A DNA stretch of 64,000 nt from the NCBI GenBank assembly GCA_020736575.1, contig JAGPYM010000080.1:24726-88725 (forward strand), written 5' to 3'. A program made the translations under genes and the position numbers. The notes under the pieces were generated by a model. That model made no database searches and had not been told where the DNA came from. It worked only from the letters and a program-made list of their open reading frames with translations. Shown one piece after another: positions 1 through 64,000 of the stretch (positions are counted from its first letter, which is position 1; each line of letters begins with the position of its first letter). This DNA is from Thelonectria olida. Lineage: Eukaryota; Ascomycota; Sordariomycetes; Hypocreales; Nectriaceae.

Positions 1-617
1 TATGGTGGGACAGAAGTTGTATGATGTGATTCTGCAAAAATTTGGGTCACGCTTGTCCCCTGAGGATTTTTGTAGCTATGTGTTTAAGCCCTCGGACTCA
101 CGCTTGGCTTCGGTCTGTTCTTTGCCGCTGAAGAGGAACAATTGCTCGGCGGCGTTGTGGACGAATCCGATTACTGGCGTATCCTAAAGATCAGATTCGA
201 GTACGGGTCATGTATGACCGGCCAAACTCCTTTCTTGGAAGTAGTGGTAAGGATCATCCAGAATGACCTGAGCGTTGGCATTGCAGGTTGACTCCAGCGA
301 CGAGCGACTCACTGGCTCTGCCAATGCCAGGGCGACTAATTGGTAACAAGGGTCGGAATTGATACGAGAAATAGGTTAAGTGACCGGCTAAGAACACTCG
401 CCAAGCCTCACAGGGTAGTATTTCAAGATGTAAATAGTCAAAGTGCTATCGGCATAAGGAAGGTGGATATACTAATACGAGCACCTTGATTCTTGTGATA
501 ACGCTTGATCAATCAGGCCTGCTTATAGGTACAAGTAGACGGATCGCCGCACCCATTTCAGTCCGCTTGGTTGACCTTCTAGCAAATTAGATGCAGAGTC
601 GACGGAGCGGTTTCAAC
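1..617. other. Left edge, no supported gene
   Basis: A 61-codon open frame runs from base 2 to 187 on the plus strand and could be the tail of a gene cut by the window edge. It has no motif I recognise. From 188 to 617 I see only short open stretches. The last part presumably holds the promoter and 5' leader of the protease gene that follows. Confidence 0.3.
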
Positions 618-18556: not shown

Positions 18557-21500
18557 ATGACCTCCCTTCGCCTTGCTGTACTCGGTGCAGCTCTCATTCG
18601 TTTGACTTCGGCCAGTATCATTCTCCGCAGGGACTTGACACCGCCTACCAGCCCACAGGAGGGCTGGAGCTATACCGGATGCTTTGTTGACAGCGTTGAC
18701 CAGCGTTCTCTTAATGGCGCTGTCCACTATGATAGCACCGGCCTGACGGCTGAGACCTGCGTCGCCTACTGCGCCAACGCCGGCTATATCTACGCCGGCA
18801 TGGAGTACGCGGTCGAATGTTGCAAGTGACCACCTCCCAAGCGCGAAGCACATGTACCTGATGGCTGACCATGACATCTTGCAGGGTGCGGTAACACGTT
18901 GCCGACCACCGAGGCAGCTGAGTCCGACTGCAACATGCCATGCTCTGGCGACAGCAGCCAACCCTGCGGCGCCGGCAATAGGTTGTCGGTCTTTGGGGGT
19001 TCTGCCACAGACCCCACGTCGCCTCCCACGATTCCAGGCTGGTTCTATGTTGGCTGCATCAAGTGAGTACTCAAGCATTCTAATGACGCTGTGATGTGTC
19101 ATATCCAGCACCACGGGCTAATCCCGTGATGTAGGGAGGGTTCTACGGGCCGCACCCTCACCACCCAGGTCTTCCTATCCGGGGGATCCGGTTCCATGAC
19201 CAACGAGCTCTGTGTCGCCGCCTGCGAGGTTGATGGCTTCACCCTCGCTGGCACCGAGTACGCTGGCGAGTGTTTCTGCGGCACCCAGTACGCCAACGGC
19301 GGCGGTGACCAAGCCAATGGCTGCAACATGAAGTGCTCCGGCGATGAGACCCAAATATGCGGTGGCCCCAACCGCCTCAGTGCCTGGGCCTTTGGCGATG
19401 AACCCGTTTCCTCAGGCAGCCCATCCTCGGTGGCGGCCTCAACCACCATGTCAAGCTCTGTGGCTTCGTCCTCGGACGAGGGGACGCATACTTCGAGCAC
19501 TGACGAGACTATTTCCAGCAGTAGCACTGCCTTGTCAAGCTCTGTGGCTTCGTCCTCAGAGGAGGGGACACCCACTTCGAGCACTGACGAGACCATTTCC
19601 AGCAGTAGCACTGCCTTGTCAACTTCGTCCGCTCTTCCCAGCACCTCAGGACTGCCTGATGGCTGGGCCTACAAGGGCTGTTACATCGACCCTCCTGGAC
19701 GTGCCATGGCCGCCGCTCCAGATAGCCCTTCGGCAAGCAACACTCCCAAGACTTGCATTGCCACGTGTATTGCCAACGGCTTCACCATCGCTGGCATGGA
19801 GTACTCAAACGAATGCTACTGCGGCAGCGAGCTGATCAACGGCGCCTCCAAGACGGATGAGACGGACTGCAACATGTCCTGCTCAGGCGACGACGACCAG
19901 ATGTGTGGTGCCGGAAACCGGTTGTCCATCTACTCCAAGGGCGACTTTCTCATCTGGCCGGTACCCGAGGCCAAGAAAACCGGCTTGCCAGGCTCTTGGA
20001 AGTATAAGGGCTGCGTCTACGACAACCCCTACATCTTTGAGTGGCTCTGGGAGGATGCCCCTGACAACGCCAGCAGCAACATGACGATTAACACGTGCCT
20101 CGAGCGCTGCCAGAAGTTTGGCTACCCTGCTGCTGGTGTCGAGTACGCCCGCCAGTGCGTCTGCGGCGATATCGGCGCTGTCCAGACCCGGGACGACGTT
20201 TTCAGGGACGACTCGTTCTGTGGCATGGTTTGCCCAGGCGACCGCAACCACACGTGCGGTGCCGGCAACTACTTCAACTACTACGAGTGGGATGGCACGC
20301 CATTCAACACGTTCCATTACGCATCCGGCTACATCGCGGGTGAGTACGACTTCTTCTCGACGTCGCCCATCGTACCCTTGATCAGCTCTGTTGGCATCAA
20401 CGACAAGGTCGTCTTCGTTGAGAAGCATGGAACGTCCCTGGACAACACGGAGGGCTCATTCGAATTCGACTACTCGACCGACACGTACCGCGAGCTCGCC
20501 CTCAAGACCGACGTTTTCTGCTCAGCCTCCTTCACTATGCCTGACAAAGCCGGCCGCATAATCAACATTGGCGGCTGGTCGGCCGACTCTATCTATGGCG
20601 TCCGTTTCTTCACCCCCGACTCACCGCAGGGCGTTGACAACGGCACCAACGTCTGGGAGGAGGACTTCACGCAGCTGCACCTATTTGATCCCCGCTGGTA
20701 TCCCACGGCCCTGATCCTATCCAATGGCTCGTTGCTCGCCATGGGCGGCGAATCAGGCTCCGACGCGCCCATAGTGCCGACGTGCGAGGTCCTGCCACAC
20801 CCCGCCGGCGTCACCGAGTCCACCTACCTCGACTACCTCGCCCGTGCCGACGAGATCAACCGCCGCAACTCGTATCCCTTCATGGCCATCCTGCCCTCGG
20901 GCAACATCTTTTTTGCCCAGTTCAACGAGTCGCGCATCATCTCCCAGGCCGACTTCCAGTCCATCCGGAAACTGCCCGACATGCCTGGCGCCGTCGACAA
21001 CCCTCTGACTGGCCGCAACTACCCTTTGCAGGGGAGCATGATGATCATGCCTCAGAAGGCCCCGTACACCGACCCTCTGCGCGTTCTCATTTGCGGAGGC
21101 ACGACGGTTGAAGATAACACAGCCCTCGATAACTGCGTCAGCTTGACGCCTGATGTCCAGGGCGCCGAGTGGACTATTGAGAGAATGGTAAGACCAAGCT
21201 TCCCGGGTTCCTCTTTCACATTATGCATGCTCACTCCCACACAGCCTTCGAAGCGCGTCATGCCCACCATCGTGGCTCTTCCTGACGGCCGCTATCTAAT
21301 CATCAACGGGGCCCAGAAAGGCCGTGGCGGCTTCGGTCTGGCTGATAATGCCAACCTCAATGCCGTCATGTATGACCCTGAGCAGCCGCTCGGCCACCGA
21401 ATGACCGTCCTGGCCAACACTACCATTGCCCGCATGTACCATTCTGAAGGTGTTCTCCTGAGCGATGGCAAGGTGCTCGTCTCGGGCTCTGACCCCCAGG

Positions 21501-21931
21501 ACGAGGGCAAGCACCCCCAGGAGCACCGCATCGAGTATTTCTGGCCCGATTACCTGCTGTCTGGTGCTGAGACACCGGAGTTTTCTATCGCCGATCGCGA
21601 CTGGGCCTACGGTGAGGACTACAGTTTCACGCTCGACTCAACCCTGGCCGCCGGCGCCGCCAACATGCGCGTTTCCCTCATGGCCTCGATCGGCTCAACC
21701 CATGGCGTCACCATGGGCCAGCGCACCCTGTTCCCAGACTTCGCATGCGACGGCAGCGATTGCAGTGTCACGGCGCCGCCTGACGCCTTCGTCAGCCCAC
21801 CCTCGTGGTACCAGATGTTCGTCCTCGACGGTCCCACGCCCTCGCACGCCGTCTGGGTCCGCATCGGTGGTGATCCGGCTGCCCTGGGCAACTGGCCTCA
21901 GATGCCGGGCTTCACTACCCCTGGTGTATAG
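18557..21931 (+). CDS. WSC-domain glyoxal oxidase (copper radical oxidase, AA5_1)
   Basis: CDS join(18557..18821,18885..19062,19135..21187,21245..21931), 1060 residues. A signal peptide ([20 protein letters not shown]) leads into four WSC domains beginning [24 protein letters not shown] and SWKYKGCV; a Ser/Thr linker separates WSC2 and WSC3. The C-terminal half is the copper-radical oxidase propeller. Visible active-site residues are Cys610 and Tyr670 (cross-linked Cys-Tyr pair; DVFCSAS, RWYPT), Tyr897-His898 (ARMYHSEG) and His985 (STHGVTMG). Their spacing matches glyoxal oxidase. It should oxidise aldehydes outside the cell, releasing H2O2, with WSC domains binding wall glycans. Intron 1 is GC-AG and restores the motif ECWCGN. 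Intron 3 is 57 bp and open in frame. The gene appears intact; the ATG at 18557 is chosen for the signal peptide. Confidence 0.95.
18822..18884 (+). other. GC-AG intron
   Basis: The exon ends GAATGTT and the intron starts GCAAGT, ending TTGCAG. Splicing here gives T+GG, a Trp codon, and completes the conserved WSC motif Cys-Trp-Cys-Gly-Asn. No GT donor nearby does this. GC donors with an otherwise perfect consensus, as here, are a known minority class. Confidence 0.85.
19451..19618 (+). repeat. Two tandem 84-bp copies in the Ser/Thr linker
   Basis: Bases 19451..19534 and 19535..19618 are near-identical 84-bp units, differing at only a handful of bases. Each encodes 28 residues beginning SSSVASSS and ending SSSSTAL. 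The unit lengthens a probably O-glycosylated stalk between WSC2 and WSC3 of the glyoxal oxidase. Being in frame and recent, it may vary in number between isolates. Confidence 0.9.
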
Positions 21932-35508: not shown

Positions 35509-36501
35509 TCACAGGCGCTTTTCAGCCCTGCTGAATGCCTCCCAATATGGTTCGTCAACGGGATCGTCCGCCTCATCTGGCATTTCCTCAGGTCCACGCA
35601 TCTTCACAATAGCGCCTTCAACATCTGAGTCTGCTCGAACTCCCGCAGACGGTAACGTAATGTCTGCACGAAGCTGAATGGTCTGCAGTGGCGCTGCTTC
35701 TTGCGTCGCTAGTTTTTTTATGTACTCGGCATCCAGTTGTTGAAACCGCGCTGCCCATACACTAGGCCCCGGCATGCGAATGTCGACGTCAAGTGTCTTG
35801 CCGCCCTCAAACGGCCCAATGGTAAAGCCCAGAGGGATCGCGGCCACGGGGACGGCGGCGCCGATGGTGAAGGAACCTGATTTACCACCGGATATCTTGG
35901 CCTGAACGTTTCGGAGCTCGTATACTCCCGTGACGCAGTATATCTTGGGCTTACAGAGTGTGACCTTCTTCCACACCAAATAAGCGCTTCTGGCCACGGT
36001 GAGCCATCTAGCCAGGGCATCTCGTGTCTCGGGCGCTTTCATGACTCTCTCAAGGAAGAATGCTTCCGGGCTTTTCGGATCCTTAAAATCAATACCACAA
36101 CTGGACTTTATCGGGTGACTCACTGTTTCAAGGTAACACGGCGTCCGCTTTCAGCGACAATGATCTTGCTTCGTTGCCTTGCAAGTTCAATGTTCATCTT
36201 GGCCATCTCGATGGCTTCGATTCCGAATCCAAACTTCCGGCCAGATTTAGGAGTAAAAGAGCCACTGATCGGCTGTGAGAAGACCAGTTCGGTGTTTCCA
36301 AGATCGTCCTCGCTAGACATGTTAGCATGCTCTGGTCGAAGGCATCACACTGGGTCCCGGAATGTACCTCAATCTCGGGAAAGTGCAAAACCGAACATCG
36401 GGTTGGGCATAATTGCCATATACAAGCGTGCCAAGCGTAAGCTGGTCTAGGTGGTAACCCGTTCCATAGAGGTAAAAGGTTGGCTCGTCTTTGGGAGACA
36501 T
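35509..36501 (-). CDS. Gasdermin-like pore-forming protein
   Basis: CDS complement(join(35509..36070,36124..36312,36368..36501)), 294 residues. Starts MSPKDEPTFYLYGTGYHLDQ. Acceptor 36070 was preferred because it keeps the frame and joins TLK to HPEAFF. The pattern at residues 147-222 resembles the gasdermin N-terminal beta core: KPKIYCVTGVYEL, an amphipathic strand, a Gly/Ser/Ala-rich turn (GGKSGSFTIGAA), then GKTLDVDIRMPGPSVWAARF, comparable to the VTEVLQ...KTVTIPxGS...AFRV run of animal gasdermins. An acidic C-terminal tail (PEEMPDEADDPVDEP, residues 268-282) could mask the basic pore domain. The adjacent, divergent CHAT protease strongly supports the call, since fungal gasdermin-like genes (RCD-1, HET-Q1 type) are often paired with proteases. 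Expected role: membrane permeabilisation in regulated cell death after cleavage. Assignment is by eye. Confidence 0.72.
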
Positions 36502-36921
36502 TTTGCAGGCTTATGGAGAGTGACGGTCCGATATTGTTACAATGGACGGCTAGTTAGTTAATAAATGGATGGTTTGGTAAGGTCTGCGAGGAAGCAGGCC
36601 AGCCCCCAGTCGAAAGGCGAACCCTAGCTCTGTGCAGTGATGCCCAAATAGCAAAGTTCGGCGCTTGCCATGGAGAGCTTTTAGGCCAATCGAGCTTCTG
36701 CATGTTGAACAGCTCCTTTTGCATGTGACAATGTGCAATGTGCATCCCATGACAATCCTCCTACGTCACCCAGGCCAGCCACTCGCCGGCAGTTCAACAC
36801 TGCAGAACATCTCTTTGGTACCTGGGAACTGGCCAAACAAGAGTGAATTTATCACCTAATCAAGAGTCAAGAGTTCACGAACTCGACCTCCCGATATTCG
36901 CACCAAACCGACACTCCTACA
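36502..36921. promoter_or_regulatory. Shared divergent promoter of the gasdermin-like/CHAT pair
   Basis: The two start codons (36501 minus, 36922 plus) are 420 bp apart with no other supported gene between them. A head-to-head layout of this size suggests coupled transcription. I see no unambiguous TATA box or palindromic operator. Confidence 0.5.
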
Positions 36922-39900
36922 ATGGACTTCACCCAAGTGATTGAGGTATTCGGCGGCACGATATTCGCGGAAGAGTATCGTACCAACTTCAAGGACTCCG
37001 AGGACTGGATCCAGGCGTTTGAATCCGCTACCGCTACCAACACTCCAACAAATGAGGAACGTGCTGCTCTTCTTCTCCTGCGAGCGATACAAGATGCACT
37101 ACGTGGAAATCTTTCTGGTGCCGACAAGTATTTGATGGATTTGCAACGTTTGGCACAGTGTGGATTGGGCAGTGCTTGGGTCTCGCGCTGCCAGGCTTAT
37201 CAATCCTACTCGCTGTCTCTGAAGAGAGCCTCTCCAATTTTGCGATTCTGGCCGGACGTGGAAAGCCAGTCTGGAAAATTGAGAGACGCGAAGCTTCAGA
37301 TGTTTGAGAGCAAGCAGCAGCTACGAAGCCAGCGGAGACAAAGGGCTTCGAACTGGTCCGTCGTTGAGGAACTCGAGAGCAACTTGATCTGGAGCTCCTT
37401 TGGGTACTACGACAATCTGTGGAAGGCGTACGACCACCACCCAAGCTATCCCAACAGCACGTGGGGATTTACATTCGAAACAACAGAGATTTACCCCCCT
37501 GAGACCCGCAACCTCGCTGTTGTCCTGGAGCTTCCTACACTTGAGGCTTATCTGGATCGCCTCCAAACAGAGTATCAACGGGGTGGAGGAGCCGAGCGGG
37601 TGCCTGTCTTGCTGCAACAGTCTTTCGAGACATGTATCTCGGCGGGAGATCTCGCAGGAGCGGCTAATGTCAGAATTCTACAAGGGGACCATATACTCTC
37701 TCCCCCATTTACAAATCCTCTCGCCCTCAATCTCATGCCTCTGGATCACGGTCTAAGCTGGAGCAATAGCGCTTGGGATCCGCTCGAACCACAGTTCACG
37801 CTTAGGCACAGCGATGCAGCAAGTTCACAGTATGAGGAGGCACTGGGACTCTTTGAGAGAGCCGGGAAATCGCGTGGACAAGGAGCCGTTCATTTGCGTA
37901 TGGCATGTGTCATGCACGCAGAAGCCCTTTACCAAAGCTCTAATGGCCAGGTTGGACTGGAATTTCTTCAGTCAACGCTGGCCAGTCTCGATAAAGCACA
38001 CGGCCTCTTCCGAGGAGACTTCACAAACACACAATTGGTCGCCTGTCACCGCTTGCTTCTTGACATTACCTCCGATCCCGACTGTTCGGATTTGATTGAG
38101 AGGGCCACCAATCTCGGTTCCTGGGGCCGTCAAGCAGACAACGATCCCGTGTCCCGATTCATCGGTTTACTGGTCCTCCGCTTCGGCCGGAAATTATACG
38201 TAGAGAATGGGAACACGGATGCGGCCTTGAAGTGCTGTGCTTGCGCGAGAGCTTGCTTTCACGGACTTGGTGACAAAGTTCTCGAGTTGCTTGCTCTCAT
38301 AGCACACGCGGAGCTTCAAAGAGATTGCGGGAACCTTGCCGTGGCTCGTGTCCTTGTCGATCAAGCCAGAGAGCTATTTCCGCAGTCGCTCGCGCAGCTG
38401 GACTCACTAATCGAAGCTGTCTCTGGGAAGAATTGCGCCCCAGATGCTCAGACGATCCAGCTCTTGAAAACAAACTATCGCCTAGAGCTCAATCGGGTGA
38501 TGAATTCCATTGAGCAGTCCAGTACGTCCGCCTTTGCGAGCCGGGGGGCTCATGAGCGCCTCACCGGAGGCTCGTCACTTCCAGCTGTGGTTGAAGCGCT
38601 CGCAGGATTGGTGGCAGACTATCCGGGCTTGAGTTCCCAATTCGAGAACGCAATTGCAAACCCTGCCAAAGAGCTTGGAGATTTGGAGTCGGAGTATTTC
38701 GAGGTGCTCCGTCAAAGCCAAGAGGCTCTTCTACAGCATGCGGACGCAGATGCATCAGAAAAGATCTTCAGAGACTTCCTTTCCAGGCTCGATAGTATAT
38801 CTGGGTTCAAGTCTAAAATCCTTGACACGCTTAAGCTAGCTACACTGCACCATCTCGGAGAATTCGGAAAGGCACAGCACAGTTTAGACAGCATCCTCCC
38901 GGCTGACTACGGCGGCAAAGCCGATTATCCATTCAGCCTATCACTTCCTAGCGGCGCTGCTTCAGACCTGCGCCTTGCTGAACAACAGAGGAGGGAAGGC
39001 AACGTCAGGGATTACATTGGGAAGTGCTTCATTGCGAAAGCATGGCGGCAAGGCGCAGCAGTTCTCGAGAACGCGAGGAGGTTCTTTCCAGAGCTCCTAA
39101 AGCTGGAGAATTTGTCGAAGGATGCTGACAATTGGACGTTGATGGTTTGGATCGCCTGTATCGAGGAAAACAATGGACACCTCGATACCGCTTTCGAGTG
39201 GTATCTGGCTACGCTTCGACTCGTGGAATCGCAACGCAGTCAGATGCAGGACCCAGACGCTCGCCGTGACGTCCTCAGCACCATCAACTCTGGGGAGCTA
39301 ATTTCCGGCCTCTCTAGAATTTCGTTGCGGTTCTACGCAGCCAGTGAGTCTGAAGAAAGCCGCGAACGCTTGGGGAAATGGAACCTCCCTGGGCCGACTT
39401 GGAAGGACCAAGCCCTTCTTTTCCTCGAACAAGGCCGCGCGCGAGCGTTGCTCGACCTCCTAATCATGGAAAAGAAAGTCACCAGGGAGACATTGCAGGA
39501 ATGGTCAGACGAGTCGTACCAGATACGTCTGCTATCTGAATCCCTAGCCTCTCTCGGCGACGAGCGTGACAAGGCTGCTGCTGATGTGGCGAAGAGATTG
39601 GGAGTTGAAAAGACGAAGCTGTCGGCCATACAAGCCAAGCTGGAGACGCAATCGAAGGGCATGGCTTCCATGTTATCCGAGTCAGGGTTTTCTTCTGATG
39701 CTGAAGGATTATATTGCTGTATTCCCCAGGACGCGGCGGTAGCATACATCACCTTGTCGAGAGAAGGTCTTCTGCTGCTTGGCGTCACTTGCAGTGGAAT
39801 TGAGATTGTGCACCAGGGCGATTCGACTGACCTTGAGATACAAAAGACGGTCCTGGCCTGCCTCAAGTTGCTGGGAGCCCCTAAAAGACAAGACGAACGA

Positions 39901-40902
39901 CCAGCCGCCGCAGAATGGATGGCACTCCTAGAGCCAATATCCGCAATTATTGTCGAACCGCTTGCGCCTCTCATCAGACGGAAGAACCATATCATCTTTG
40001 CCCCATCCCACTCCTTCAACAAATTCCCATTTTCCGCACTGCTCTTTGATGGAAAGCCCCTGTTTCTCCGAACAGCCATCTCTCTCATACCCAGCCTATG
40101 TTCCTTGCAACGCCTAGTTGACAAGCAAACTACTAGCAATGAGATTGCAGCTACTGTGATTGTAAAACCCGGAGTCAGGGATGGCAGTGCCGGAGGGCGT
40201 CCTCTACCATTCGCTGGAATTGGAGGCGTTAACCTCGGTCAGGTATTTAATTCCACTACAAGAAACGCGAACAACGTCAGCCGGGAAGAGTTCAAAGGCC
40301 TCTATCAGTCATCAGACATTGTCTTCATTGCCACGCACGGCCTGCATACGGGAAGTTCCCCATGGCAATCCTCCGTTCTTCTGCAGGAACCGTTCCGCGT
40401 CCTAGAGCTTGCCGAGTCGCGCAGCAACGCCGCAATAGTCATTTTCGCAGCATGCGTCAGCGGGCTTGGAAAGGAGACCGTTGGGAACGACATACTTGGA
40501 TTCTCGCACGCCGTGCTCGCTTCCGGAGCTTCATCCTATCTCGGCGGACTATGGAAGGTCAACGACCAAGCGACAATGCTGTTGACACATCTGTTCTGCA
40601 CCCGACTCAAGAATCGCCAGCACGGCGTGTCTTTCGCGACGTGCTGGCGCAACGCACAGATTGAGCTCTATGGTATGGATCAGGGGCGAGCTATCGAACT
40701 ACTGGAAGAAATGGGAAATGTTTGGGACGCGGAGGCTAGCAAAGGGAATATTCTTGAAGAGATCCCTTCGTGGATAAGGGGTCAGATTGATATTGCAATC
40801 GAGGACATTCAGGAGATGGGTTTGGACTATACACATCCTTACTTTTGGGCTCCGTTTGTTTTGATAGGCCATGGTAGCTCAGTACTTCACGACAGAGATT
40901 AG
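36922..40902 (+). CDS. TPR-CHAT caspase-like protease
   Basis: One uninterrupted exon of 1326 codons. Residues about 30-900 are helical and TPR-like (repeated A/L/G patterns such as ALKCCACARACFHGLGDKVL, VARVLVDQARELF, TAFEWYLATLRLV, DQALLFLEQGRARALLDLL). The C-terminal about 370 residues are a CHAT domain: HIIFAPSHSFNKFPFSALLF, then the His of DIVFIATHGLH (His1139), then the Cys of VIFAACVSG (Cys1178), then NDILGFSHAVLASGASSYLGG and WKVNDQAT. The His/Cys dyad of clan CD is intact, so it should be an active cysteine protease, with the TPR arm sensing an activator. It is divergent from the gasdermin-like gene, which is its likely substrate. The full length suggests tight autoinhibition. No frameshift or stop is seen. 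Family and dyad are clear; the partner is inferred. Confidence 0.92.
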   Translation: MDFTQVIEVFGGTIFAEEYRTNFKDSEDWIQAFESATATNTPTNEERAALLLLRAIQDALRGNLSGADKYLMDLQRLAQCGLGSAWVSRCQAYQSYSLSLKRASPILRFWPDVESQSGKLRDAKLQMFESKQQLRSQRRQRASNWSVVEELESNLIWSSFGYYDNLWKAYDHHPSYPNSTWGFTFETTEIYPPETRNLAVVLELPTLEAYLDRLQTEYQRGGGAERVPVLLQQSFETCISAGDLAGAANVRILQGDHILSPPFTNPLALNLMPLDHGLSWSNSAWDPLEPQFTLRHSDAASSQYEEALGLFERAGKSRGQGAVHLRMACVMHAEALYQSSNGQVGLEFLQSTLASLDKAHGLFRGDFTNTQLVACHRLLLDITSDPDCSDLIERATNLGSWGRQADNDPVSRFIGLLVLRFGRKLYVENGNTDAALKCCACARACFHGLGDKVLELLALIAHAELQRDCGNLAVARVLVDQARELFPQSLAQLDSLIEAVSGKNCAPDAQTIQLLKTNYRLELNRVMNSIEQSSTSAFASRGAHERLTGGSSLPAVVEALAGLVADYPGLSSQFENAIANPAKELGDLESEYFEVLRQSQEALLQHADADASEKIFRDFLSRLDSISGFKSKILDTLKLATLHHLGEFGKAQHSLDSILPADYGGKADYPFSLSLPSGAASDLRLAEQQRREGNVRDYIGKCFIAKAWRQGAAVLENARRFFPELLKLENLSKDADNWTLMVWIACIEENNGHLDTAFEWYLATLRLVESQRSQMQDPDARRDVLSTINSGELISGLSRISLRFYAASESEESRERLGKWNLPGPTWKDQALLFLEQGRARALLDLLIMEKKVTRETLQEWSDESYQIRLLSESLASLGDERDKAAADVAKRLGVEKTKLSAIQAKLETQSKGMASMLSESGFSSDAEGLYCCIPQDAAVAYITLSREGLLLLGVTCSGIEIVHQGDSTDLEIQKTVLACLKLLGAPKRQDERPAAAEWMALLEPISAIIVEPLAPLIRRKNHIIFAPSHSFNKFPFSALLFDGKPLFLRTAISLIPSLCSLQRLVDKQTTSNEIAATVIVKPGVRDGSAGGRPLPFAGIGGVNLGQVFNSTTRNANNVSREEFKGLYQSSDIVFIATHGLHTGSSPWQSSVLLQEPFRVLELAESRSNAAIVIFAACVSGLGKETVGNDILGFSHAVLASGASSYLGGLWKVNDQATMLLTHLFCTRLKNRQHGVSFATCWRNAQIELYGMDQGRAIELLEEMGNVWDAEASKGNILEEIPSWIRGQIDIAIEDIQEMGLDYTHPYFWAPFVLIGHGSSVLHDRD

Positions 40903-42380
40903 TATCCCCAACGCGTTCTCGCGATTTTTGCAACGTTATTACTATCAATCTACGTGTTGGCAGTCCAAAACTGGTGTAATGTATCGTTTATTCACGTCAG
41001 GCTGCTGGCCACGTGCACAATTGAGCTGGATGAGCCCACCAGGTCGTCAACTGTCGTCTTCTTTCCGTCTTGGCGGTTGTTTCCATCTTGGACTGCCACT
41101 GCTCGGCCCGTCTGGGTCGTGGGAATACCGAAACCCGAACTATGAGTTCTTCCACCGGAATCAAAACCCCCGAACTGACAGTTGCAGGGTTCATTTTACG
41201 CTTTCCAGGGGCTCGAGAGGAGACGAATTGCCATCGTTCGATCGCTCCCTTTTTAGATCAGACTACTAGGGTTATGTGTCCGGCCTCGAGCAGAGGTTTG
41301 GCAAGGAAGAGGCTTCTTCCAGGCAGTTCGTTAGTTCAACACTTGGTAGAATGCTACCGGCATGAGATGGGAGAGCTTGTCATGCTGGCGGTTAGTCGAA
41401 TCAGGACTTGAAAGGGACTAGTTCATGGATCTGGGACACGGAATTCAAGGGCTTCTGCATGAGCATCTCGTAAGCAATAGATCTTTACATGAGAGCAACA
41501 GCAATAGACGACGTAATCTATGGCACTATGCGGCCGGCTTCGAGACGGTCACCCTCAAGCCGTCACCATCGAGTTTCATTATGACTACGCGTTCAGAACT
41601 TCCTAGTTAATTTACACTAGCGGACGTTCCTTGGCCGGATGGTTCCCGGCATCACGCAGCTGCACGAGTGCAACGTTGGGTAGTAGCCACGTCACAGCCT
41701 AGCATCTGAGTACTGGAGGTTCAATCTCCCAGCCCAGGCCATCCTCTATTGATGAATGACAATCGACAGATTCCTCCAATTGAAAGAGCTCTTGCTGAGT
41801 TATTGCAAATGGTTCAATCGGGCCTCTTCCGCCCTGACAACGGAGGTGAAGTACCAAACCAACATTTGAAACCCCCGAGTAAGCCAATGATATACGCCAA
41901 TGTCCCCTCCACTCTGCCAAGGCCAGCTAGTCACCGAGTTAACTTGATGAACTATCAGCAGCTTGCATGACACTGCCACGCGGGGTGGAGCTCTCTCGGC
42001 TCTATTCGAGCCGATCGCTGGGGATCCATGGTTCGATCAGGTCCAATTAACCTCAGTCAAACGCGGCTGTGTCCGTGCTGGGAGCCTCTACCGTCCATCC
42101 CTTGACCACAATAGAACGGCCCAGCTTCGATTCAACCATGAATAGAAGACGACTTCACGCCCAAAGATGTCGAGCGACGCGCGGCCGGGCTCCTACAGAG
42201 CAGGTCCCCTATTTTGCATGATAACTATGACGTAGACAGATAGGATCGCAACAACTATAAAACTGGCAATGCGCAGCCTGATATAGCGACATTTCATCAG
42301 GTTGACGACATCAGCTCTTACAAGTCAACCGCCTCTGTATGTGCAGCCAATACCGACACCCACAGCACAGCACCATCAAC
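40903..42380. other. Intergenic
   Basis: About 1.5 kb with no supported gene. Only short open frames without motifs occur on either strand. The last part contains the promoter of the secreted hydrolase. Confidence 0.4.
42256..42262 (+). promoter_or_regulatory. Candidate TATA box of the secreted hydrolase gene
   Basis: TATAAAA occurs about 120 bp before the ATG at 42381, within a C-poor promoter stretch. Distance allows a leader of 80-90 bases. Confidence 0.45.
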
Positions 42381-43415
42381 ATGTTTGGATGCCGCACTAT
42401 CGCCCTCGGCGTACTGACGCTCGTCAACGCCATGGCCGCTACGGCCCAGAACCTGTCGTTCGGAGCCGATAACTTCTACCGTAGCGAGAGCGTCCAGATC
42501 CAGCCCATCACGTTCCCGACCCAATACCACACTCACGTCACGGGCAACCTCTTCTACCCGCGCAACCTGAGCCGCAACATCGAGACTCCTGCCATTGTCG
42601 TGGGCCACCCTATGGGCGCCGTCAAGGAGCAGAGCGCCAACCTCTACGCCACCAAGCTCGCTGAGCAGGGCTTCATCACCGTCTCCATCGACCTCCCCCA
42701 CTGGGGCGGCAGTGACGGCGAGCCTCGCAACGCCGTCTCGGTCGAATACTACGCAGAGGCATTCAGCGCTGCCGTCGACTACCTCGGCCTCCAGGACTTT
42801 GTCAACCGTGAGCGCATCGGAGGTGTTGGCATCTGCGGCAGCGGCTCATTCATCATCAGCGCCGCAAAGATTGACTCCCGTCTTAAGGCTATTGCCACTG
42901 TTAGCATGTACGATATGGGTGCCGCCGCCCGCAACGGCCTCCAAAAGTCACAGACCCTGTCCCAGCGTAAGGAGCTCATTGACGCCGCCGTCGCCCAGCG
43001 CTGGAACGAGTCTGAGGGTGAAAAGCCCGAGTTGATCGGCGGCACCGTGGACAGGCGCGAGGATGCTACGGATGCTATCCAGCAAGAGTTCTATGACTTC
43101 TACCGCACAACCCGCGGTGAGGTTACACCCCCAGGTGCTTTGCCCAACACTACGACTCACCCGACGCGCTCGAGCCTAGTCAAGTTCTTCAACTTCTACC
43201 CTTTCAACGACATCAGCACCATCTCACCCCGTCCCCTACTCTTCATCTCCGGCGACCAGGCTCACTCGCGCGAGTTCAGCCAGGACGCCTACAGGCGTGC
43301 TGCCGAGCCCAAGGAGCTCATCTGGATCCCTGGTGCTGGCCACGTTGATCTCTACGACCGTGTGGAGCTCATCCCCTTTGGCAGACTTGCCCGCTTCTTC
43401 AGGCAAAACCTGTAA
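42381..43415 (+). CDS. Secreted alpha/beta hydrolase, dienelactone-hydrolase-like
   Basis: Single exon, 344 residues. The ATG at 42381 is preferred to the upstream in-frame ATG at 42339 because it begins a signal peptide (MFGCRTIALGVLTLVNAMAATAQ). The fold shows PAIVVGHPMGAVKEQSANLY (oxyanion strand and loop), GFITVSIDLPHWGGSDG, the elbow GVGICGSGSF with Cys152 as candidate nucleophile, an acid at Asp292 (FISGDQAHS) and His321 (PGAGHVDLYD). The GxCxxG elbow resembles dienelactone hydrolases rather than serine esterases. The family is widespread in moulds and listed as uncharacterised alpha/beta hydrolases. Codon use is strongly C-ending, suggesting good expression. It appears intact. Substrate unknown. 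Confidence 0.85.
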   Translation: MFGCRTIALGVLTLVNAMAATAQNLSFGADNFYRSESVQIQPITFPTQYHTHVTGNLFYPRNLSRNIETPAIVVGHPMGAVKEQSANLYATKLAEQGFITVSIDLPHWGGSDGEPRNAVSVEYYAEAFSAAVDYLGLQDFVNRERIGGVGICGSGSFIISAAKIDSRLKAIATVSMYDMGAAARNGLQKSQTLSQRKELIDAAVAQRWNESEGEKPELIGGTVDRREDATDAIQQEFYDFYRTTRGEVTPPGALPNTTTHPTRSSLVKFFNFYPFNDISTISPRPLLFISGDQAHSREFSQDAYRRAAEPKELIWIPGAGHVDLYDRVELIPFGRLARFFRQNL

Positions 43416-47301: not shown

Positions 47302-48285
47302 TCACGGAGCAAAGCCGCCTATCTCGGCGATCTTCCTCTCACCCCTCTTTTGACGCCAGGAGTTCGTCGCCTCCAATAGTTCTAGGCAACCTTGCAGCAA
47401 CCAACCCCATTTCCGCAAGAACGGTACACTCGCTTCCCATCCTCGAGGGTCCCAAGCATCGCCCCAGACGATAAGAGAAGCTGTATTACTTCCCTTGTCT
47501 TGAACGTTGAGGACGTCCATGCCCAACGCCTTGTTGTCGAGGAGGCCAGCTTCCACCGCGCGCAGGATATTGTCGCGCATGCGGGGGAAGGGGATCAAGT
47601 CGATCCACGGATGGTGTCTCACCGCGATCTGCAACGGGGATGGGCGAAGCCCATCCGGGCAAGCCTGTGACCGAGGGTATGCGCAGGGAAGGTCGGGGCA
47701 GTGTTGGTTAAATGGCGATAGCAGCTCAGGACAACAAAGCCCTTCGGATGCAAAACCAAGTATTGCTGCATTGCATGAAATAGCATTAAGGACATTGAGT
47801 CGTATTATTATGCCAAGGTGTTCCAGTCGCGGCGTGCTATAATTGTAGTCCTCATATGCTCTTTGCGTGAATCTCTGAACCTGTGTGCGTGATTCGGGAG
47901 TGGGCAAAAGAAGATGGCCTTCTGGGAGAATATTGCTGATTCTCCCGTCTTCCCCCATCTCCTGCCTCATAATCTCTCCGTTACCATCCGTTGCGTCGCT
48001 TGCTGTGTATGTGATATGATGCTCCGAGATTGGCAAAGAGATAAGGCCAGCACGTCTCCTTTTCCCTAAACCGCCGCACGCGGCTATCAGCTTTATGGAA
48101 CCGAAAAGGACAAATTGGAGTTGTGACCGACGATATGCCCTTTGATGGAGCCGATTCTGACGTTTCTTTCTCTCAGCCGTGCTTGTGACGCCTGTCCAGT
48201 CATCGTATAAGTTTCTCGCCTCCGACTGCTGAGGCATTGGCTCTAGGGTCACCGTTGGAAGGTTCTTGTAGAGCCGCGGATCCAT
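47302..48285 (-). CDS. bZIP regulator with DUF3425 C-terminal domain
   Basis: Start 48285 (MDPRLYKNLPTV). The basic region DWTGVTSTAERKKRQNRLHQRAYRR is the AP-1-like form (N-R-x-x-Q-R-x-x-R). An intron at 48066..48131 (GTCGGT...TTTAG, 66 bp, open in frame) would turn the following hydrophobic insert into AYRRKRRRAGL, giving 305 instead of 327 residues. I prefer the spliced form. A leucine zipper is short or absent, as usual in this class. The C-terminal half is DUF3425: HLGIIIRLNVLNAISCNAAI, LQIAVRHHPWIDLIPFPRMR and a final W-rich helix (WDPRGWEAS...KWGWLLQG). Probably a nuclear DNA-binding regulator. The NmrA-like gene starts about 340 bp away, transcribed in the same direction. Confidence 0.8.
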   Translation of the reverse strand: MDPRLYKNLPTVTLEPMPQQSEARNLYDDWTGVTSTAERKKRQNRLHQRAYRRSQLQFVLFGSIKLIAACGGLGKRRRAGLISLPISEHHITYTASDATDGNGEIMRQEMGEDGRISNILPEGHLLLPTPESRTQVQRFTQRAYEDYNYSTPRLEHLGIIIRLNVLNAISCNAAILGFASEGLCCPELLSPFNQHCPDLPCAYPRSQACPDGLRPSPLQIAVRHHPWIDLIPFPRMRDNILRAVEAGLLDNKALGMDVLNVQDKGSNTASLIVWGDAWDPRGWEASVPFLRKWGWLLQGCLELLEATNSWRQKRGERKIAEIGGFAP

Positions 48286-57470: not shown

Positions 57471-60400
57471 ATTACAGGTTACTTAATATCCTGAAATCGC
57501 TACTATAAAACACTTCCTTATAAAGATTTGCTTTAAATATTTATATAAATAATTTAATTTTATATAGTTTTTTAACTTATAAGAATTTATAAAATTATTA
57601 ATTAAAATATAAGACTTTTAAAAGTTTTATATTTTAAATACTATTAATAAAAATTATTTAATAAATAGTATATTAAATTATAAAATATTTAATTTCTTTT
57701 TATATATTTTATTTTTTAATAGAGTTTTAAATATATTTATTATTTTTAATTTATTATATAATTTAAAAAAAGAATTTATATATTTATTTAAATTTTAAAT
57801 TAAAACTATTATAAAAAGTATATAATAAAAATTTATATAAATTTAACTTTAATAATATATATATTAAATAAAAATTTATAATAAAGTGTAATAATCTGGT
57901 TAATTTCTAATAGATAAAACTAGAGGGTTTTAAGTTTATATTAGTAGAAAGATTAGGGTATTAAGGTTTAAGTAATATAATAAGTTATTATATTTAATAA
58001 TATACTTAAAGTAAATAAGTATAATTAAATTATATTAAAAGCTAAAATAGCTATATTTATTTAATATATTAAATAAATATATATATATATTAAAAGTATA
58101 CTTATAAGCTTATTAAATAGAAGTAAGTCTAATTAAGTAGCTTATTATAAGTAAATAAGTTAAAAGTTTTAGTTTACTTATATAAAGTGAGTTTAGGATC
58201 TAATATTATATAAAAACTAGGTCTATTATAGTTTTACTAGTTATAACTGCCTAGTTTTAGCCTAAGCTATAATATAATATCTCTTCTCTTATTAGTTATA
58301 CTCTTATAGCTATTTTTAAAACTACTTTTTAAATATATATTAGTATATTTCTAACTTGCTTTTTTAATTATTTTCTAATATATTAATAGAATATCTAATT
58401 AAGTTTTAAAGTGTCTTTTAAAGTTTTATAATATTTTTAAATTTAAAATAAGTAAATTAATTTTAATTACTTTTATAAAGGGTTTTAAAATTTCTATTTC
58501 TAGAATAAATATACTAGTTCTTATTATAACTATTAACAAATTTAAGTTTAAAATAATACTTTATTCTTATTATATTTCTTATAAATATATATATAAAATA
58601 TTAAATAATAATTTTAAAAAATATAGTTTTTATATTAATAAGGGCTATTCTTATAATATAATTAGTATTTTCTTTTACTTATATAAGTATTCTTTTAGTT
58701 TTTTTTTGTTTTTTTTTATAATTTTTTATTAAATAATTATAATAACTTATATTATTTCTAAAGTAAAATACTTTAATAAAAAGAATTAGAGTTAGAAGAG
58801 AAGTTTTTTAAAAAGTAGGCTGCTTTTTAATTTCTTTAAATAGAGTTTAATTAATTTTTAAATCTTTTAAAATATATGTGTTATTAGTATTAGTTTTTAA
58901 TAATAAGAGGTTATAAAATAACTTATTAGAGTTTTAAGTTATTAAAAGAATTAGAGTTATTAAAATAGGTAAAATATAAGGCTACTATTAATTTTTAGTA
59001 TTAGTTTATATTAATATTATTAATAAGAATTCTATTAATTTTAATCTTTTATTTAGTTTTAATATTATTAGTAAAAGTTTTTTAAGAGGTATTATATATA
59101 AGTAAGGTTTTTTAATATAATATATTTTTTTTAATTAATAAGCTATTTAATTTATTTATTTATTTATTTTAATTATATTAAAAATTTCTTTTATTTTATA
59201 TTTTTAAAGTTTTTAATTTTAATTTCTAGTTTATTACCTATTTTAATTATAATTATTCCTTTTATTAGTTTAAATAAGAAAATATAAAAGATTAAATAGA
59301 ATTTAACTTTTAATAGTAAGTTTAATTTATAATTATTTTTTAAGATTTTCTTTAAGATTTTATAAGGTCTAATATATTTATAATTAAGTTTTTTATTTAG
59401 TTTTTTATATTAATATTTTTTATAATAAGGAGTATTATATTTCCTTCTAAAAAGATAAGTCCTTTTAACTTTTTCTAATTATAATATTTTTTATATATTT
59501 TTAAATAAAAGAAAGTTTTATATATATTCTTTTATATAAATTTTTAAATTAATTTAATACAAGAATAGCTATTAGTATAAGTAGTTTATTTTTTAATTTT
59601 TATAAGTATTTAAAGTAAATTTAAAATTTATATAATTTAATATAATTTTAATACTTTTATTAGTAATTATATTATATACTAATTATACTATTAGTAACTT
59701 TTTAATTTAATTATTCTAAATATAATTAATATAATAATAAAAGTAAGTTTTTAAAATTTAATTTATTTATTTAATTTGCCTATTAATTTATAATTTTTAA
59801 ATAGTAATTAACTTATAATTAGTCTAATTCTTATTATAAGGTACTATTAAAAGTTTAAAAAAAAGGGTAGTTTTCTATTTAAAATAATTATATTAAGTAA
59901 TTTATATATACTAATAATATTTTATAAGAAAATATAAGAAAATCCTTTTATATTAGTTACTTTTTAATATAAAATAAAATAAGAAAATTTAATAAGTTTA
60001 TTTATAATAATTAGAATATTATTATAAGCTATACTTATAATAGGTTTAGTAATAAAAATAGTTTTATAATAAAATTTATAATATTTAAATCTTATAATTA
60101 TTCCGTAACTAATATAAGTTATAGTTTTTTATAAGATTTATATTATTATACTTTTATTTTATTATAAATAAAATATTATTTAATTATTTTTTAATTATTT
60201 TTTTAACTTTAGGAAATAAAATATTATTTTAACTTATTTAAAGGTTTTATTAATTTTTTAGAATTTATAAAATGGGTATTTATAAATCTCTTATATAAGG
60301 TCTTTTATAAGTATTTTAATACTTATTACTTATTAGTCTTTTTATTATTTAATAATTATTTATTATATTTTAAAATTTATTTAAATAGTAGACTTTTTTA

Positions 60401-63400
60401 TTTTATTATATATACTATTATAAGGGTTTATTTTCTTTTTTATATTATAATAATATATTTTTATATAAAGTGTTTTTTAAATATATAGTGTAAAAGCTAT
60501 TTTTTAATTTTTATTTTACTTATATTAAAATTAGATTATTAGCTAATAGTATTAGCTTTACTATTTTTAATCCCTTTTTATATTTAATAATATAATTAAA
60601 TTTAAAAAGGTATTTAATATATTTAAATTATTATCTGCTAAATTATAATATAATAGTAAAATATAATATATTTTTATAATTTATATAAATTATAATTTAA
60701 TAGTAGCTTTTAAGTAAATATTATTAGAACTTTTTAAAAGTTTAAATTATTATAAGAAACTCTTTATTATAAATAGAGTAGTTAAATTTTATTTTATATA
60801 ATTTATAAGAGTAAAATATAATTAGGTATAATTTTCTATTATTAATATATTATCTAATTTAGGCTTTTAGGGTGAAATTTAAAGAGTCTATTTTTAATTT
60901 AATAGATTATATAAGGTTAAATATTTTAAATATTAGTTTATTAAAAATAAGATTTTTAATTTTATTAAAAGCTTTTTAAGTATTAAGTTTTTAAATAAAT
61001 ATTTAATCTTTTTTTATTTATTTTATAAGAGGTATAACTATTCTTTTAAATTTTTTAAAAACTTATAATAGTAACTTATAAATTTTAAAAAGGCTTATAC
61101 TTTTTTAATTATTATTAGTATTAGCTCATTTTTAATAGTTAAGATTTTCTATTTATTTATTTTAATTTCTTCTAATAAGATTTTATAATTTAAAAATATA
61201 ACTTTTTATATATAAAATTACTTTTAATAAGTTTAATTAAAAGCTTAATATTTTATAACACTTATAGTACTTTATAAATATATTTTATATAATTATTTTA
61301 TTATTTAAAAAGATTAAAATATTATTTAAATAGTATATTATAAATATATTTAAATATTTTATAATATATAATTAATTATTTATTAGAATATTATAACTAT
61401 ATTAATAAGACTAAAAGGTATAATAAATTATATATAAAATTTAAATTTTATTTTAAATATAATTTTCTATTTATATTCTTTTTTAATATAGATTAGGTTA
61501 TAAGCTCTTTTAAATTAAATATAGTAAAGATTTTCTTACCTTATAAGTAATTTTTAGTTTACTAATTAAAAGTAAAAGTATATAATTTTTAATTATAATA
61601 TTATTAAGCTTATAATAATTTATAATAAGTTAGAGTTTATTTAAATAAGGCTTTAAAATAAATATAATTAAGTAGCTAGTAAATAATTTAAAAATTTTAA
61701 TATATTCTTTTTAATATATTCTTAAAGTATTTTTTAAGTGTTTATAATTATATTTATTAAAGTTATAAATCTTATAAAATATTATTAATATTTATTTTTA
61801 AGTTAAATCTTATAACTTATTCAAAATGCTCTAGTAGACCTATTTTTAGTTTTTTAATAAATAATTTCTTATAAACTTAATATTATATTAGTATATTTTT
61901 AAGTTTATTATTAGATAATACTTTTTTTTATTATTTAAGGTTTTTATTTATTTATATATATTTTTTTAAGAAATATAATTATTTATTATATTATTATACT
62001 TACCTTTTTTATATTTATATTATATTCCTTTTAAAGGTTATATCTTTTATAAGTTAGGGAGTGTTTTTATTATTATTTTATTATATTTTTTATTTTTTTA
62101 ATAGAAGTTTAAACTTTTATATTATTTAAATTGTTATTTATATTATTAGTTATATTATTTTAAAAGGTTTATATTTAGTTAGTATACTAACTAATAAGGG
62201 GGTTATATTAGTAAAATTATAAATAATTTAAAAGTAAGTTATATTTTTAAAGGGGTATAGTATTAAGATTAACTTTCTAATTTTTTCTTTTTATAAATAT
62301 TTTAAAGTAATTAATCTTATAAATAAGTTATTTATTTTTATATTTAAATAGTTTTTTTTTTATATTAAATATTTTATAAGAAATATTTTTATCTTTTTAT
62401 AATAGTTTCAAATAATTAACTACTTATAAATTAACTCTATTTATTTCTATTTTACTATTTACTAATATAATACACTATTATCTTTTAATTTATACTTATA
62501 ATATTATTTATTATTATAATAATATATTATTAGGTTTTTATATTATATATATAACTCTTTTTAAAAGCTTTATAACTTTTTTTTATTTTAACTAGTCTTA
62601 TTATTTTATTATAAGTAGTATTTATTATTTCTTAACTATTTATATATATTTTAAACTTAGTATTTTATAATTTTATTTTATAAATTATATATATTATAAG
62701 GTTATATTATTTATTTTAAGTGTATTTAATACTAGTTTACTATTTTAGCTTATTTATATATAAAGCACTTTTAATATTAATATTTAAATATATTATCTAT
62801 TTTATTTATATACTTTTTAATAAGGGGTATATATATTTTATAAAGATAGTAATATTTAAGTATAATAGTCAATTTATATTTTTTAATATATAAGGTTTAT
62901 AATTTAATACTATTTTCTTATAAAATGTAGTTTTAATTATATTAAGTAGTAGTTATTTTAAGTTTTATATAGTAGGTGCTATATATATATATAATTATAA
63001 TATAATACTTATAAAATTATATAATAGTTAGGGTATATTATATTTAAAATAAGTATATTATTTTTATAAACTAGTATAATTTATAATTTCCTATTTAGAT
63101 TATTTATTAGTTTATATTATAAATATAAAACTTTTTAATAGTAGTTTATTATTATTTAATAATTAATTTATAAATTAAATATACTTATTAAGTTTCCTTT
63201 TTAATATTTTCTTTTAAAATAGTATTATTAGTTTTAAATATTTCTCCTTTTTTAATATTTTATAATTATAAACTTATTATATTAGAATACTATTAGTAAG
63301 TAAGTTTAGAAATATATATTAAATATTAATAGGCAATTTAAATTCCTATATTTATTTTAAATTTAATAATATTAAAAATAGTTTTAAAATGTTATTTTAT

Positions 63401-64000
63401 TTTAAATTATAAGTTTTTATTATATAAGGTTACTAAGGTTTTAATTTACTAGGTTTAATTTAAAAGCTTTTATAATAGTTTAGCTTATATAGCTATTTTA
63501 TTAGGGCTTTATTAAATAGTTATATATTTTAATAAGTTATTATAATATATTATTATAAAGAATATTACTTCCTTTTAAGCGTATTACTTTAGGTTTTTAG
63601 GCTATTATAAGAATATTTATACTATTTTAATTTATTAGGTTTACTTTTAATAGTTTAAGGATTAGTTTTTATATAAAGTATTTAATAATATTTTATTTAT
63701 ATAAGTTAGCTTAAGTATTTTATTAAATTATTATATTAATATTATTATATTAGCTTTTATTTATTTTTTATATAAACTTTATAATATTAAAAGTATAGTA
63801 CTTTAAGGGATTCTTTTATTATTATAATTACTTTATATTATTATAAGGGTTTTCTTTAGAATTTTCTAGTTAAATTTATTATTTCTTAATATATTAATTA
63901 GTACTTTTATTTATTTCTTATTTTTATAAATCTAATAATCTTTTAAGTAGGTTTTTTATATATTATAAGTTATATTTTCTATTTTCCTTTCTATTAAAGC
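57471..64000. repeat. AT-rich, RIP-like block reaching the window edge
   Basis: Over 6.5 kb of DNA is dominated by A and T with TA, TTAA and ATTA everywhere. The few G or C bases sit mainly in AG, GT, CT or AC contexts. No open frame survives on either strand. The left border is sharp. The extent and the near absence of CpA/TpG-derived coding sense fit one or more transposons destroyed by RIP, as in the gene-free isochores of filamentous ascomycetes. No terminal repeats, target-site duplications or reverse-transcriptase motifs could be read. A centromeric or subtelomeric location is possible but not shown. Confidence 0.8.

Follow-up and report, generated by a model that had tools for sequence, protein, structure and literature searches.

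The systems closest to the locus described here are known from Podospora anserina. A CHAT protease with TPR repeats lying beside a gasdermin is a combination that has been tested in this fungus (PMC12881547), the cluster of Clave et al. 2022 being described in passages of three reviews (PMC12881547, PMC10197012, PMC10989679). In the passages of these reviews cited here, HET-Q1 (278 residues) is activated by losing about 40 C-terminal residues (PMC10989679), roughly 80% of fungal gasdermin genes have a protease gene no further than 10 kb away, 19% have a CHAT gene inside that distance (PMC10197012), about 17% of the proteases clustered with gasdermins have CHAT (PMC10989679), and a repeat array replacing the NLR domain is a described type of sensor (PMC12881547, PMC10989679). 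Here we describe a divergent gene pair of the same general kind in Thelonectria olida, found in a window of 64,000 nucleotides that forms the right-hand 64 kb of the 88,725-base contig JAGPYM010000080.1 and ends where the contig ends. The smaller gene likely codes for a gasdermin-fold protein whose partner is the CHAT protease encoded by the larger one.

Like the Podospora TPR-CHAT cluster, the locus consists of two genes, a CHAT cysteine protease with a long arm and a neighbour of predicted gasdermin fold; the comparison is by review description and not by sequence, and the candidate gasdermin of the window has no sequence match to a gasdermin in Pfam or the PDB. The start codons are separated by 420 bases, as the preliminary description of this DNA had stated, so that a protease gene lies well under 10 kb from the candidate gasdermin gene. 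The features of the pair are as follows.

36502..36921, no strand: divergent intergenic region between the two start codons, 420 bp
36368..36501, minus strand: exon 1 of the small gasdermin-like gene, start codon at 36501-36499 (splice model; relatives P0002 and P0003 agree)
36313..36367, minus strand: intron 1 of the small gene, 55 nucleotides, GT..AG, with a CTAAC branch-like site
36124..36312, minus strand: exon 2 of the small gene (splice model)
36071..36123, minus strand: intron 2 of the small gene, 53 nucleotides, GT..AG; these same boundaries reproduce the deposited protein
35509..36070, minus strand: exon 3 of the small gene, including the stop codon (splice model; conserved columns of the family alignment)
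35914-35940, minus strand: YCVTGVYEL, in exon 3
35812-35874, minus strand: hydrophobic stretch, in exon 3
35734-35760, minus strand: VWAARFQQL, in exon 3
35656..36486, minus strand: predicted gasdermin pore-forming core, residues 6-246, with the introns inside it (range 6..258 of the deposited protein P0001, aligned to RCD-1-2)
35512..35655, minus strand: acidic C-terminal tail, residues 247-294, candidate inhibitory segment and cleavage region (from its charge and its position past the range aligned to RCD-1-2)
35512..35547, minus strand: conserved helix motif of the tail, residues 283-294, YWEAFSRAEKRL, candidate plug (helix in both structure models)
36922..40902, plus strand: CHAT protease gene, 1326 residues, single exon, with a long N-terminal arm that is weakly TPR-like in some relatives
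39931..40869, plus strand: CHAT domain, residues 1004-1316 (Pfam, 118.9 bits, the cut-off being 24)
40336 and 40453, plus strand: first bases of the codons for His1139 and Cys1178, the catalytic pair of the CHAT domain

The assignment of the small protein rests on predicted structure. For two low-confidence models, made from family proteins that are 41% identical, gasdermins were ranked at the top, before CDC/MACPF and everything else, which agrees with the gasdermin-N-like core proposed earlier and points to the fold of the N-terminal pore domain. Fungal RCD-1 comes first in VIA-align for both models, the aligned identity in the VIA rows being 10-16%, and the bacterial gasdermins 7n50, 7n51, 7n52 and 8sl0 are also matched in fold by both. 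The RCD-1-1 and RCD-1-2 proteins of Neurospora crassa (8jyx, 8jyy, 8jyz) differ from the mechanism considered below in acting through allele pairing without cleavage, according to review passages (PMC12881547). The bacterial gasdermins resemble the small protein in its predicted fold and, in the passages cited, in having their genes clustered with protease genes (PMC12881547, PMC10197012); they differ in being prokaryotic, and the small-protein family is matched by no PADLOC model of any kind. The profile search against gasdermins that had been proposed gave no match with the sequence models used: none with Pfam for the small protein and all 10 members of its family, none with PADLOC for the 10, none with NCBIfam for two of them, and none among PDB sequences in single-protein and profile searches. 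Pfam PF04598 found nothing in the whole genome either, so that this model may not reach fungal gasdermins.

The alignment to RCD-1-2 stops at residue 246 of the small protein (residue 258 of P0001), leaving a short C-terminal segment of 48 residues past the pore core, which we take as the putative inhibitory part. The tail was correctly described as acidic, with a net charge of -7 over its 48 residues and +7 in the core. Nine of the 10 family members have a tail in the alignment, and in all nine its net charge is below zero (-5 to -27); the core charges of these proteins lie between -1 and +9, and a basic core is therefore no general feature of the family. Within the tail motif the Tyr and Ala are nearly invariant in the family alignment, and both structure models predict a helix; the motif forms the extreme C-terminus of the window protein, and most relatives have additional residues after it. 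By analogy with HET-Q1, the layout may be read as core, cut region and plug. The two proteins are similar in size (278 and 294 residues), in the stretch past the core (about 40 and 48 residues) and in having a protease gene alongside, whereas HET-Q2 of P. anserina is a 388-residue S8 subtilisin-like protease and the partner in the window is a CHAT protein of 1326 residues (HET-Q details from passages of the reviews).

Three exons on the minus strand (36501-35509) give exactly the 294 residues of the intact protein first proposed, and the motifs quoted for it are present in this translation. The deposited T. olida protein, P0001, has 306 residues and matches the splice model apart from 12 added ones, for which intron 1 would have to be just 19 nucleotides long (36332-36350). 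Those relatives which cover this stretch have gaps at the 12 residues and for this reason the 294-residue model is to be preferred; the 19-nucleotide intron is probably an annotation error. No paralogue of the small protein was detected in its own genome at E<=1, the sole three matches being its own exons.

The large gene is free of stops over 1326 codons, a run with a chance of about 2e-28 (61/64 per codon), and the intact protein ending in CHAT with His1139 and Cys1178 is borne out by the open reading frame, the Pfam score and an alignment of 23 proteins in which both residues fall in invariant columns. CHAT was matched at E<=1 by all 23 proteins scanned (the window protein and 22 relatives). 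The arm is less clear. It had been described as a TPR sensor instead of NACHT or HET, and the second half of this statement holds: at E<=0.1 Pfam finds no NACHT, NB-ARC or HET domain in the protein, the sole entries being CHAT, which passes its cut-off, and DUF7273, which does not. As to the first half, no Pfam TPR model matches the arm of the window protein, and across the 23 proteins TPR matches at E<=1 are weak (TPR_2 in 10, TPR_12 in 6, the best at 7.8e-7), so that sequence comparison gives the TPR label only indirect support here. The separase family C50 is matched, again at E<=1, by 13 of these 23 proteins. The absence of a Pfam match to a nucleotide-binding domain speaks against an NLR-type gasdermin protease (NACHT or NB-ARC). 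The TPR-CHAT protein of type III-E CRISPR (Csx29) was rejected at 20.4 bits against a cut-off of 300, with a match confined to residues 1117-1227 of the catalytic region. One partial CHAT relative, P0018 of Cryomyces minteri, has a match to the hAT transposase dimerisation domain, apparently at the start of the protein, which may reflect an inserted transposon or a gene model that was fused.

Conserved pairing, which had been proposed as a check, is seen in three other genomes, where relatives of both proteins come from contigs of equal length (three of the nine contigs outside the window that hold the small protein), from which we infer co-location on one contig in each case. The contig of Dactylonectria macrodidyma measures 1,404,641 bases, that of Tricladium varicosporioides 258,754 bases and the third 10,629 bases, on which the two genes necessarily lie within about 10 kb of each other. 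Identity to the window falls in parallel for the two families, being in turn 77, 41 and 37% for the small protein (the 37% relative is a fragment with 109 residues aligned) and 86, 42 and 26% for the CHAT protein. The chance of one given gene falling on the same contig is approximately 0.027, 0.005 and 0.0002, taking the 52.5-Mb genome size of T. olida, which is assumed for the other genomes. P0033, the linked protein furthest from the window's, has a very long branch and an uncertain position in a tree built from 26 CHAT proteins, and the tree is not taken here to date the association.

Several observations weigh against a fixed partnership. On the Dactylonectria and Tricladium contigs there is linkage and not demonstrated adjacency; no CHAT relative was found on six of the nine contigs outside the window that hold the small protein; and for 22 of the 26 CHAT proteins, some of them on long contigs, no small protein was found on the contig. 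Both searches for relatives scored only the 8000 or so candidates with the most words in common, and the linked P0033 is already at 26% identity; the absences therefore weaken the argument from pairing and do not decide it.

We nonetheless consider it quite probable that a gasdermin-fold protein and a CHAT protease that cuts off its acidic tail act together here, with the likely outcome that a membrane pore opens and the fungal cell dies. We infer cleavage, pore formation and cell death as the steps. Residues up to 246 would be the pore-forming core and residues 247-294 the inhibitory tail, in which the conserved YW..F..A...L helix may plug the core and the variable acidic stretch preceding it may be the cut site. 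Until a trigger is sensed, possibly hyphal fusion with an unlike strain or a parasite, the protease would be kept inactive by the long arm of the CHAT protein; the protease would then remove the C-terminal tail, and the freed core would form a membrane pore and cause the death of the cell. The pair would in this manner work as HET-Q1/HET-Q2 and the TPR-CHAT/gasdermin pairs of Podospora do.

The small protein might instead be a gasdermin triggered, like RCD-1, by an unlike allelic form once cells have fused, with the CHAT protein serving another pathway. RCD-1 leads the VIA-align matches for both models and, in the review passages (PMC12881547), acts without cleavage, and most relatives of either protein were found without the other; yet linkage to a specific CHAT family on four contigs, the window included, and an acidic tail of 48 residues past the pore core, as in the cleaved HET-Q1, make an allelic trigger improbable. 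That the gasdermin matches are an artefact of poor models, and the protein belongs elsewhere among beta-rich membrane or lipid proteins, for instance with the MACPF/CDC-like pore formers, is more improbable still, given that both models, from proteins of 41% identity, rank gasdermins ahead of CDC/MACPF and have a fungal gasdermin as their best VIA match.

CHAT genes are numerous in this fungus, and one could lie beside the small gene incidentally. Including that of the window, the 52.5-Mb genome holds 38 CHAT-domain matches, some possibly pieces of one gene, and on the two long linked contigs adjacency was not seen. The neighbourhoods of 20 of the 37 matches outside the window were searched with a family profile and a motif pattern. 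The window's own exons were detected as a positive control, and no second copy of the small gene was found around the 20, although a gene of short exons could escape because of its introns; the best match there had E 4, compared with 1.5e-71 for the exon in the window. With the three other contigs that hold both families and the low chance figures given above, we regard an incidental neighbourhood as very improbable indeed, and the protease-gasdermin pair is retained.

No report on this pair was found among the literature matches listed, in which subscription papers and preprints are mostly outside coverage, and to this extent its description as uncharacterised stands. The novelty claimed for the TPR arm was overstated: a CHAT protease with a repeat arm adjoining a gasdermin is already documented, and since the basic arrangement is known, the pair itself is unsurprising. 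What is new, to a moderate degree, is a divergent, probable gasdermin clade missed by the sequence models used. This strongly diverged clade is linked to a protease partner in at least three ascomycete genera (Thelonectria, Dactylonectria and Tricladium), and if this is true fungal gasdermin counts may be too low.

The clade also bears on a question that Auxier and colleagues leave in their work on the Aspergillus fumigatus gene hetB (PMC11138114). In the part of that paper cited here, hetB, a CHAT protein of 1,327 residues, is reported as a heterokaryon-incompatibility gene, its counter-allele is a protein of 149 residues, and the authors ask whether a gasdermin is involved downstream of the CHAT protease. 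The window CHAT protein has two relatives in A. fumigatus, P0030 and P0031 (31 and 35% identity), which may or may not represent hetB. It is a tentative and rather unlikely suggestion that a hidden gasdermin clade, invisible to sequence models, is the dedicated executioner of the CHAT family of about 1,300 residues that includes hetB, the odds being lowered by the 22 CHAT proteins without a small protein on their contig. If it were true, fungal "CHAT incompatibility" would be a gasdermin-driven, pyroptosis-like death whose partner gene had gone undetected.

Elsewhere in the window we noted an M43-type metallopeptidase (591-1505), an alpha/beta hydrolase (42339-43415) and a DUF3425 protein (47302-48285), none of which looks connected to the gasdermin/CHAT pair. 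In an open reading frame of 911 residues at 19196-21931, three stretches match WSC domains, and a part resembling glyoxal/galactose oxidases comes after them. Across the final 6 kb (58001-64000) the GC content falls to 10-12%, with a GC skew of about 0.2; this is possibly a degraded repeat or a chromosome-end region.
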